From: Oligoflexales bacterium
GTDB lineage: Bacteria; Bdellovibrionota_B; Oligoflexia; Oligoflexales; Bog-1112
Assembly: GCA_017985985.1 (NCBI GenBank)
Contig: JAGNWK010000022.1
Span: forward strand, 1 to 36,598
DNA: 36,598 bases
Direction: 5' to 3'
A program made the position numbers and the translations under genes. The notes under the pieces were generated by a model. That model was not told the DNA's origin and ran no database searches. It saw only the letters and a program-made list of their open reading frames with translations. Shown in pieces: positions 3,464-34,708 of the stretch (its first letter is position 1; the number at the start of each line of letters is the position of its first letter).

Positions 3464-3501
3464 AAGTCAGCTCTCTTATAAAAAGTCAGCTCTCTTATAA
3501 A
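3464..3501. repeat. Two-copy tandem 19-bp repeat in divergent intergenic region
   Basis: AAGTCAGCTCTCTTATAAA occurs twice back to back (3464-3482 and 3483-3501), differing only by normal run-on of the A tract. It lies 43 bp before the tsaC remnant start and 68 bp before the start of the divergent receiver/TPR gene. It could be a duplicated operator or a replication-slippage duplication. Nothing else is recognised in 3397-3543. Confidence 0.75.
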
Positions 3502-3543
3502 ATAGATCAGCTTCGGACATTCAAAAATCAGAGTATCTAAACA

Positions 3544-4294
3544 ATGAACACAGATCTAGTTTATCACTTCATCAAGGCCCTAAAATCAGGCAAGGTTTGC
3601 CTGCACCCTACGGACACCCTGCCCGGGCTAAGCTTTGATCCTAGTTCAAAATTAGGATGGGAAGCCCTCCTTCACATAAAAAAAAGAAAAAGGGTAGTCC
3701 TAAATGGCTAATGCTGAGTTAAATGCGTGCTCAGAATTTTCTCTTTACTTTCAGGTGGATCAATTACCTTAGCATTAGCGGCTTAGGACTACCAGAAAAA
3801 GCACCTCGTCTCGTGCGAAGCCCTTCGTAAGCCTGATCCATCGAGCAGAGCAGGCTCGAAAACTATGGAAGCCTCTTCCCGCCAACTGGGACCAAGCTGT
3901 TTCTCTTCTCTGGCCTGGACCTCTTACATTGATATGGAAGGCCTCTCTCCAAGCTGATCCCCAACTTGTATCCGAAGATGGAACCTTGAGTTTACGGCTA
4001 CCGATTTAGCCCGAAGGCTGCTCATGGAGGGCAGAGCTTCTTGCCAAACTCGACATAGCTTTGCCATCCACAAGCGTCAACTTAGCCTCTACAAGTCCCT
4101 ACTTGAGCTGGGATAAAGCTGTTCAATTTTGTGAGGAAAGTACAGACATCTATATCCCACGACTTGAATCCCAACCCCATTTTTCTGGAGCAGTATCATC
4201 TCTCGTCAAAATACACGAAGATGGCTCTTACACCTTCCTCAGACAAGGGGCTGTGGGAGAGCAGGAAGTTCAACAAGCCTTAGGGACTCTTTGA
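3544..4294 (+). pseudogene. tsaC: Disrupted tsaC/sua5 (threonylcarbamoyl-AMP synthase)
   Basis: TsaC/Sua5/YrdC makes threonylcarbamoyl-AMP from threonine, bicarbonate and ATP for the tRNA t6A modification. From ATG 3544 the frame reads a YrdC N-terminus with HPTDTLPGL and the IKKRK motif, then stops at 3709-3711 inside an inserted element. Beyond the element the same family continues: LLWPGPLTLIWKA, GTLSLRLP, then LPSTSVNLAS with the SxN motif, ending at TGA 4292-4294. Removing the element and one 8-bp target copy restores one frame across the join (IKKRK-STSSRAKPFVSLI). A second lesion, an in-frame TAG at 4007-4009, follows GTLSLRLPI. The gene therefore has an insertion plus a nonsense codon and is very unlikely to make active enzyme. 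Since t6A is essential in most bacteria, an intact copy is expected elsewhere (inference). Confidence 0.88.
3693..3793. mobile_element. 101-bp miniature inverted-repeat element inside tsaC
   Basis: The ends are inverted repeats of 23 bp (3693-3715 and 3771-3793), both starting GGTAGTCCTAA and ending GCTAATGCT with three mismatches between. It is flanked by an exact 8-bp direct duplication, AGAAAAAG, at 3685-3692 and 3794-3801. It has no coding capacity, so it would need a transposase in trans. The insertion is visible because excision with one target copy repairs the tsaC frame. The parent element is not identified; an 8-bp duplication fits several IS families. No second copy was found in this window. 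Confidence 0.88.
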
Positions 4295-4560
4295 TGGAGA
4301 TTGCTGCGCTCGCAATGACGAGGTTCTGCATGGAGATTGCTGCGCTCGCAATGACGAGGTTCTGCAATGAATACTTCGACCGCTTGGCTCCTACCTGTCT
4401 ATGTATTGCGATTTCGTCATTGCGAGGAGCCGCAGGCGACGAAGCAATCTTGCCTTTACACGGAGATTGCTTCGCTGCGCTCGCAATGACGAGGTTCTGC
4501 ATGGAGATTGCTGCGCTCGCAATGACGAGGTTCTGGATAAATACTTCGACCGCTTGGCTC
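4294..4560. repeat. Cluster of palindromic CGTCATTGCGAG-type repeats
   Basis: Three copies of a 36-bp unit (atggagattgctgcgctcgc plus continuation) lie at 4294-4329, 4330-4365 and 4501-4535. Between them is a 77-bp long-stem palindrome at 4415-4491 whose ends are CGTCATTGCGAG and CTCGCAATGACG. The 20-bp flank atacttcgaccgcttggctc occurs at 4371-4390 and again at 4541-4560. The first unit begins on the last base of the tsaC stop codon. The same 77-bp palindrome recurs at 14609-14773 and 34274-34350. Dispersed repeats starting with CATTGCGAG are known in many bacterial genomes. No coding role is supported. Confidence 0.88.
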
Positions 4561-14537: not shown

Positions 14538-14608
14538 CTAGGAAGGGGCTGGAAACCTTGCCCTGAGCCCGTTTAAATCAGCTCCAACCTGTCTACGTAT
14601 TCCAATTT

Positions 14609-14773
14609 CGTCATTGCGATGAGACGGAGGCGACGAAGCAATCTTGCCTTTACACGGAGATTGCTTCGCTACGCTCATGGCGAGGTTCTGCCATTTCGTC
14701 ATTGCGAGGAGACGGAGGCGACGAAGCAATCTTGCCTTTACACGGAGATTGCTTCGCTACGCTCGCAATGACG
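14609..14773. repeat. Two tandem copies of the 77-bp palindromic repeat
   Basis: Units start at 14609 and 14697 (period 88). The second is complete, 14697-14773, with CGTCATTGCGAG and CTCGCAATGACG ends. The first has a decayed right arm (gctcatggcgag). The flanks resemble those at 4371-4414 (gtctacgtattccaattt; gatgaatacttagac). The 315-bp gap 14538-14852 holds these repeats and a REP-like tail (14806-14845), and no gene. Confidence 0.88.
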
Positions 14774-14823
14774 GGTTCTGCGATGAATACTTAGACAAGT
14801 TGGCTCAGGGCAGGCTCCGTCGA

Positions 14824-18720: not shown

Positions 18721-19404
18721 ATGAGTCTCGAGTTTGAAAATCTTGGCCTGATCTCTTATGCCAGTTGCCTTGAAATTCAGCTCCAGCATCATCGACTCGT
18801 CGTCGAAGGCAGAGCTGCTTCACGCATCTTTCTTGCGGAACACCCCCCTGTCCTCACGCTTGGCAAGCACGCCAACCCAGCTCATCTCTTGCTGACTAGA
18901 GAAACTCTGCAAAAAGAACAGATCGAGCTTATTCATGTTGACCGAGGGGGAGAGATCACTGCCCATGAAAAGGGGCAGCTCCTCGCCTACCCTATCTTAG
19001 ATATGAACGCCCTCAAACTGAGACCAAAAAACTATGTTCAGATTTTGGAAGAATCGGCGCTAATGCTGCTTGCTGAGTTTGGACTCAGTGCCGAACGAGC
19101 GCCGGGTTTCCCTGGTGTCTGGGTGCAGAAAAAGAAAATTGCAGCAGTAGGGATACGAATTGCGCAGAGAGTTTCCTATCATGGACTATCTTTGAATGTG
19201 AACAATAGCCTCAAACTTTTTCAAAAAATCGTGCCGTGTGGCCTTGAGGGTAAAGAAGTCTGCTCCCTCTCCTCCTGCCTCCAACGAGACATCTCTATAA
19301 CCGACATTCTTCCTCGCTACACTGAAATTTTGCGAACTTTAATTTCTCCTCTTTCGGATAAGTTCATTAGGAACCATCCAACAAGTTGTATGGCAAGGCA
19401 TTGA
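18721..19404 (+). CDS. lipB: Octanoyl-[acyl carrier protein]:protein transferase
   Basis: The product has 227 residues and transfers octanoate from ACP to lipoyl domains. Family motifs: RGGEITAHEKGQLLAYPILD, KIAAVGIRI with Lys139, SYHGLSLNV, and VPCG with catalytic Cys173. The usual HGPGQ is HEKGQ here, a noticeable departure. The last 11 residues (RNHPTSCMARH) and the stop codon are encoded by a 124-bp repeat element that starts at 19368, so the natural C-terminus was probably different. It starts directly after folE with no spacer and converges on prkA. Confidence 0.93.
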   Translation: MSLEFENLGLISYASCLEIQLQHHRLVVEGRAASRIFLAEHPPVLTLGKHANPAHLLLTRETLQKEQIELIHVDRGGEITAHEKGQLLAYPILDMNALKLRPKNYVQILEESALMLLAEFGLSAERAPGFPGVWVQKKKIAAVGIRIAQRVSYHGLSLNVNNSLKLFQKIVPCGLEGKEVCSLSSCLQRDISITDILPRYTEILRTLISPLSDKFIRNHPTSCMARH

Positions 19405-19491
19405 GGAGTGAGCAGCGCAGTTTACTTGCTGGTAAATGAGCAGCGCAGCGATGAAAATAACGCAGCTAGACGACTTGTGGGATGGTTCCTA
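19368..19491. mobile_element. 124-bp inverted-terminal element, copy 1 (overlaps lipB 3' end)
   Basis: The ends are inverted: TAGGAACCATCCAACAAGT at the left and ACTTGTGGGATGGTTCCTA at the right, with one mismatch. The outer TA at both ends may be a TA target duplication, as for IS630/mariner-type MITEs. Inside, GAGCAGCGCAG appears on both sides of TTTACTTGCTGGTAAA. The second copy is at 31613-31736, the same length. It fills the space between the convergent lipB and prkA and ends four bases before the prkA stop. Confidence 0.83.
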
Positions 19492-19495
19492 GCCT

Positions 19496-31612: not shown

Positions 31613-31736
31613 TAGGAGCCGTCCCACAAGTCGTATAGCGAGGCATTGAGGAGCGAGCAGCGCAGTTTACTTGCTGGTAAATGAGCAGCGCAGCGACGAA
31701 AATAACGCAGCTAAACGACTTGTGAGATGGTTCCTA
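31613..31736. mobile_element. 124-bp inverted-terminal element, copy 2 (inside the cco operon)
   Basis: It has the same length and sequence plan as 19368-19491, including TA outer ends, GAGCAGCGCAG pairs and GGTAAATGAG. The left end (TAGGAGCCGTCCCACAAGT) has drifted from the right (ACTTGTGAGATGGTTCCTA). It lies in the 233-bp gap between ccoNO and ccoQ, where an oxidase operon normally has little space. The preceding 31556-31590 also shows AGTCGTA/TACGACT arms, perhaps an older decayed copy. Confidence 0.83.
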
Positions 31737-31764
31737 GGATCATTAGCTTTTTAAGGAGTACTGC

Positions 31765-34247: not shown

Positions 34248-34273
34248 ACCAACCAATCCAAATATTCCGAGTT

Positions 34274-34350
34274 CGTCATTGCGAGCGCAGCGAAGCAATC
34301 TCCGTGTAAAGGTAAGATTGCTTCGTCGCCTACGGCTCCTCGCAATGACG
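34274..34350. repeat. 77-bp palindromic repeat, inverted copy
   Basis: It is the 77-bp CGTCATTGCGAG palindrome seen at 4415-4491 and 14697-14773, in opposite orientation (the gatgtaagtattct flank lies to the right). It begins 26 bp after the lipoprotein stop codon. Confidence 0.88.
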
Positions 34351-34381: not shown

Positions 34382-34518
34382 CGAACGCCATTCGGGTCAG
34401 TCACCTTTATTTAAAATGCCTACTTTTATTAAAAAAACAGGGACACCCGAGCGAACGCCATTCGGGTCAGTCACCTTTATTTAAAATGCCTACTTTTATT
34501 AAAAAAACAGGGACACCC
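34382..34518. repeat. Two tandem 70-bp repeats ending AACAGGGACACCC
   Basis: Units start at 34382 and 34452. About 67 bp are identical (start CGAACGCCATTCGGGTCAGT), ending AAAAAAACAGGGACACCC. The GGGACACCCGAG end recurs at 36054-36065 near the transposase remnant, so these may be element edges. Confidence 0.83.
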
Positions 34519-34708
34519 AACCGACTGACCCTTTCTTTTTGGCCTTCTACCAAAAGGGACAGTCTGAAGCTGCTTCTAAGGCTCTTTTGGAGATTAGAAC
34601 TCAGTCTAGCGACACAATTAGCGAAGCTATTTAGCTCTTTGGTCGGTATTTCCTTGAAGGATATTTTGAGAATGTGTCGTTCTGCTGTCATACATTCTCA
34701 CATATAGT
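34516..34708 (+). pseudogene. Short decayed reading frame, possibly TPR-like
   Basis: One frame reads TQPTDPFFLAFYQKGQSEAA, then an in-frame stop after DTISEAI, then LFGRYFLEGYFENV. The alanine, leucine and aromatic spacing resembles a TPR or Sel1 helix pair, but no start is visible and the frame is broken. It may be the 3' end of a gene truncated by the upstream tandem repeats. Evidence is thin. Confidence 0.2.

Follow-up and report, generated by a model that had tools for sequence, protein, structure and literature searches.

Which sequence interrupts the tsaC gene of this Oligoflexales bacterium, and from which parent element was it derived? These questions were addressed in a window of 36,598 nucleotides, which denotes the whole stretch of DNA analysed here, and in the draft genome from which it comes. 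The analysis revealed that the inserted sequence is very probably a non-autonomous derivative (MITE) that arose by internal deletion from an IS1 with GGTAGTCCTAA-type ends; it was presumably mobilised in trans and lies in a probably dispensable tsaC paralog.

Structure of the insertion in tsaC

The features of the insertion, its host gene and the related termini found elsewhere in the genome are collected in Table 1. The preliminary description had placed a 101-bp element with inverted ends and an exact AGAAAAAG duplication at 3685-3801, and these coordinates were found to be exact. The two arms of the element, 33 nt each, were 82% complementary as inverted ends, and the outermost 11 bp (GGTAGTCCTAA on one side, TTAGGACTACC on the other) formed a perfect inverted repeat. 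The 8-bp AGAAAAAG duplication on its flanks was without mismatch.

Table 1. Coordinates of the insertion, its host gene and the IS1-type termini of the host genome (window positions, or contig names)
Feature	Position	Strand	Basis or remark
TsaC/YrdC-family pseudogene hosting the element	3544..4294	+	PF01300, frames
Left target duplication copy AGAAAAAG	3685..3692	.	
101-bp non-autonomous IS1-type element (MITE)	3693..3793	.	inverted ends and duplication
Left inverted arm, from the IS 3' end	3693..3725	.	complement reads FNSALAI* (IS, YNSALAV*)
Internal core between the arms	3726..3760	.	common to the C86 relic; no match to the retrieved IS ends
Right inverted arm, slightly nearer to the IS 5' end than to the 3' ends	3761..3793	.	
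Right target duplication copy AGAAAAAG	3794..3801	.	
Further in-frame stop (TAG) of the tsaC remnant, independent of the insertion	4007..4009	+	
IS1-type 5' ends with GGTAGTCCTAA	C20, C100, truncated C71		
IS1-type 3' ends with GGTAGTCCTAA	C80, C87, C125		
IS1-type end fragment with GGTAGTCCTAA	C112		

An inverted repeat that is perfect over 11 bp and flanked by an exact repeat of 8 bp was present once in the window and in none of 100 windows simulated with a first-order Markov model of the window. An A-rich target makes short repeats easier to obtain, and the duplication and the inverted repeat could in principle be products of chance or of the assembly; however, the outcome of the simulations, together with the recovery of the same ends with 8-bp duplications at unrelated loci in independent records, makes such an origin extremely improbable. 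The view that a non-autonomous element truly transposed into the TsaC/YrdC reading frame with an 8-bp target duplication was thereby upheld.

The 101 bp encode no transposase, and all three forward frames contain stops. No evident IS1-type gene could be found among the window ORFs of at least 80 aa, and genome searches with the IS1 transposase and with the end sequence produced no match in the window outside the element itself; both results agree with the earlier remark that the window holds no matching transposase. The Rfam scan of the window returned no RNA families and the tRNA scan no tRNAs.

Folding of the element as a single strand predicted a long hairpin of -41.2 kcal/mol (z = -4.4). 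Such a hairpin might have been kept for a function, for example as a terminator for transcripts that run through on the minus strand from the adjacent H+-pyrophosphatase gene, given that the minus strand reads the hairpin and then CTTTTTCTTTTTTTT, a T-rich stretch beside a strong hairpin. The loop, however, is about 35 nt long, the element itself was not called in the terminator scan, and the T-run is target sequence that predates the insertion. The element was moreover absent from all searched relatives, hence there is no conservation to assess, and a retained function of this kind is considered very unlikely.

Decay of the host gene

The host gene is a short one and matched the YrdC domain (PF01300) with 80 bits when X was placed at the insert and at the stop. 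Its current frame ends at TAA 3709-3711, within the element, so that no intact tsaC frame includes the inserted sequence. It had also been claimed that the TsaC frame is restored by removing the element together with one duplicate. This was borne out in that both halves of the gene then share one frame, but the restoration is incomplete, as an in-frame TAG persists after the removal (Table 1) and four extra codons directly follow the insertion point in an alignment with 22 homologues. Because of the stop in the element and this TAG, the host gene is disabled by at least two changes and is a pseudogene. The remnant shared 40-42% identity with the best-matching intact homologues of the order, and its TIGR00057 score was 65 against a cut-off of 123 for an intact L-threonylcarbamoyladenylate synthase, with the frame broken twice.

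An intact and longer Sua5-type synthase (PF01300, 166 bits) could be identified on another contig, C67. Judging from the established role of its family, this protein could supply the threonylcarbamoyl-AMP step; the loss of tsaC would therefore be tolerable, and the interrupted gene is probably a dispensable spare copy. For the host genome, the decay of a redundant TsaC paralog is thus documented beside an intact Sua5. Flanking synteny was weak in the relatives, with a TPR gene near the tsaC homologue in a single genome (G003), and the relatives searched included no other genome of the host's genus.

Several other repeats could be seen in the window. A 19-bp tandem repeat, AAGTCAGCTCTCTTATAAA, present in 2.5 copies (3464-3512), lies just upstream of the tsaC remnant. 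Dispersed and partly tandem repeats with the units CGTCATTGCGAGGAG..CGACGAAGCAATC and TGCGCTCGCAATGACGAGGTTCTG occupy 4294-4560, 14581-14806 and 34249-34285. A 70-bp unit occurs twice in tandem at 34382-34521, within a mechanical ORF and with 97% identity over the full unit, and a 125-nt direct repeat (92% identical) is found at 19368-19492 and 31613-31737, 12 kb apart.

IS1-family copies in the host genome

The preliminary description regarded the parent element as unknown. This part had to be revised, since the same genome contains IS1-family copies with identical 11-bp ends and an 8-bp duplication. The genome search that it proposed for short elements and IS copies with the same ends was productive, yielding a decayed relic on C86, an end fragment on C112 and IS1 ends at contig ends. 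In the 2.9-Mb genome, GGTAGTCCTAA occurred nine times without mismatch, against about 1.4 expected occurrences (an estimate with equal base frequencies). Two of the nine are the element's own ends, while the other seven lead IS1-type termini. Five of the nine, those on C20, C100, C80, C87 and C125, were located approximately 120-190 bp from contig ends and run into sequence repeated between contigs; the assembly broke at this repeat, which is why the IS1 copies lie at contig ends. No complete IS1 copy was readable in the draft assembly (2.885 Mb in 153 contigs), every intact-looking copy being cut at a contig end.

The Pfam family DDE_Tnp_IS1 (PF03400) matched C125:4460-4609 with 33.5 bits and C101 with 28.8 bits (cut-off 24.1), and only fragments were matched because the contigs break within the IS. 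The transposase on C125 ends with HYNSALAV at its C-terminus, and its stop codon lies in the inverted repeat. For the N-terminus of the IS, Pfam returned no more than weak zinc-ribbon matches. The flank before the 5' end on C100 (TTCGAAAGGG) and the flank after the 3' end on C80 (CGAAAGGGATCT) have exactly 8 bp in common, CGAAAGGG, a duplication length equal to that of the tsaC insertion. These two flanks most likely bracket a single IS copy that was collapsed by the assembler. In a Pfam search of 43 genomes of the order, PF03400 was present in one, the Oligoflexales host genome; its IS1 was therefore probably acquired horizontally. Several contigs (C30, C108 and C125 (starts), C5 and C123) are also broken by another IS1-type element, whose 3' end, CAATTTCTCTACATTACC, is a different one; by its ends it is unrelated to the tsaC element.

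Probable derivation of the element from an IS1

Comparison of the element with the resident IS copies revealed that its tips are identical, at 11 of 11 positions, to the IS1-type ends on C20, C80, C87, C100 and C125. The left arm showed 86% identity over 29 nt to the 3' ends on C80, C87 and C125, while the right arm was 88% identical over 24 nt to the 5' end and 87% over 23 nt to the 3' ends. The identity of the arms to the resident ends lay at 86-88% over 24-29 nt, with a best value of 95% over 21 nt, and because it reaches only this level the element may stem directly from another IS1 variant or from an older one. Translation of the complementary strand yields FNSALAI* for the left arm, like the YNSALAV* of the IS 3' end, which is the transposase C-terminus, and ITLALAA* for the right arm, nearest to AITLAV* at the IS 5' end. 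These readings suggest that the element is an IS1 in reverse orientation that has lost its interior.

A permissive search of the genome returned the element itself, the C86 relic and the C112 fragment as its top three matches. The lower-ranked matches of the arms were the IS ends, the C112 fragment and the element's own opposite arm, in addition to three short marginal matches (E of at least 1.65). The relic, from C86:4192 onward, is 86% identical to positions 15-73 of the element, including the core that is foreign to the IS; several bases of its left tip and its entire right end have been lost, and its GGT start is recognisable.

Another route to the same structure would be a full IS1 already residing in tsaC that lost its interior once and was never mobile as a short unit. 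That the genome has a single known intact copy of 101 bp and that the two arms correspond to two different IS ends would both fit such a one-off deletion. However, the relic, with the same core and the GGT start, places the short form at a second locus, and the core lacks a match to the retrieved IS ends, which together make a single deletion in place unlikely. The core shared with the C86 relic speaks for a short form that was a unit of its own, present at two loci.

Insertion of a pre-formed, deleted IS1 derivative is thus the preferred reading, and its course may be pictured as follows. A transposase from an IS1 copy with the same ends, acting in trans, would bind the terminal repeats of the element and mobilise it, and the 101-bp unit would enter tsaC at a cut staggered by 8 bp. 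Repair of the gaps would then duplicate AGAAAAAG; the tsaC frame is truncated by the insertion six codons into the element. The host gene, a second TsaC-type paralog, has also gained a nonsense codon, its dispensability and the order of the two mutations being presumed.

The short form is represented in the genome by one intact copy, one decayed copy (C86) and one end fragment (C112), and one intact copy with one or two relics is fewer than the many copies that the term MITE usually implies. In a BLAST search of 191 genomes the 101-bp element was found in its own genome only, and a distant blastn search of plasmids gave no match.

Comparison with known elements

The C-terminal fragment of the resident transposase was 70-79% identical, by tblastn, to the best plasmid IS1 transposases, which belong to cyanobacteria, Waddlia and Protochlamydia. 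The IS1 of the Waddlia chondrophila plasmid pWc (833 bp) and that of the Pseudanabaena galeata plasmid pPg_04 (818 bp) are bounded on both sides by GGTAGTCCTAA and flanked by exact 8-bp duplications, whereas the IS1 of the Leptolyngbya boryana plasmid p2 (781 bp) has the same ends without an exact duplication. The identical 11-bp tip at both ends is common to the tsaC element and these three, and a duplication length of 8 bp is seen in tsaC, at the C100/C80 copy and in the Waddlia and Pseudanabaena IS1. In contrast, the plasmid copies are approximately 780-830 bp long and encode (or encoded) a transposase, while the tsaC element, with its 101 bp, is non-coding.

Short elements with the same ends were searched for in 84,980 species genomes with the pattern GGTAGTCCTAA-N50-80-TTAGGACTACC. 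A total of 24 stretches could be retrieved, 23 from Thioploca, Thiomargarita and Thiotrichales HSG1 and one from a Bacillota MAG; in viral contigs the paired-end pattern was not found, nor were such elements present in 57 other genomes of the phylum. The sulfur-bacterial elements are 72-91 bp long and multicopy in all three of these lineages. The 8-bp duplication was exact in 6 of the 24 and had one mismatch in two more; many of the Thiotrichales elements are now without it. Their 11-bp ends are the same as those of the tsaC element but their interiors differ, most of them carrying a subterminal AGTAGTG where the tsaC element has TAATGCT. Since the interiors differ, the Thiotrichales elements appear to be parallel products of related IS types and not copies of the tsaC element. 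Their ends and duplication length suggest that their parents, too, would be IS1. It may be proposed, tentatively, that the IS1 group with GGTAGTCCTAA ends is a recurrent maker of MITEs across phyla, giving rise to independent forms of 70-100 bp in the lineage of the host genome and, with many copies, in the giant sulfur bacteria.

The tsaC insertion represents a clean case of a known kind of event in which the parent can be identified, and it leaves the current understanding of transposition unchanged. One IS1 terminus type is nevertheless common to the tsaC element, to the multicopy elements of the giant sulfur bacteria and to the plasmid IS1 of cyanobacteria and amoeba-associated chlamydiae. 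IS1 goes unmentioned in a review of prokaryotic MITEs (PMC10969869), although IS1-derived MITEs may still be present in ISfinder or in other papers.

Two described MITEs can be compared directly with the tsaC element. The MITE in hupL of Candidatus Thiomargarita nelsonii (PMC4853749) likewise interrupts a metabolic gene and has inverted ends and direct repeats, but its repeats are different ones: the direct repeats measure 10 bp and the inverted repeat 19 bp, and ISfinder yielded no parent for it. The 187-nt MITE of Microcystis aeruginosa PCC 7806 (PMC11448079) is similar in its 8-nt duplication, its stem-loop, the disruption of a gene and a parent recognised by end matching; its ends, however, are of the ISL3 type (GGCTCTTCG), while those of the tsaC element are of the IS1 type.
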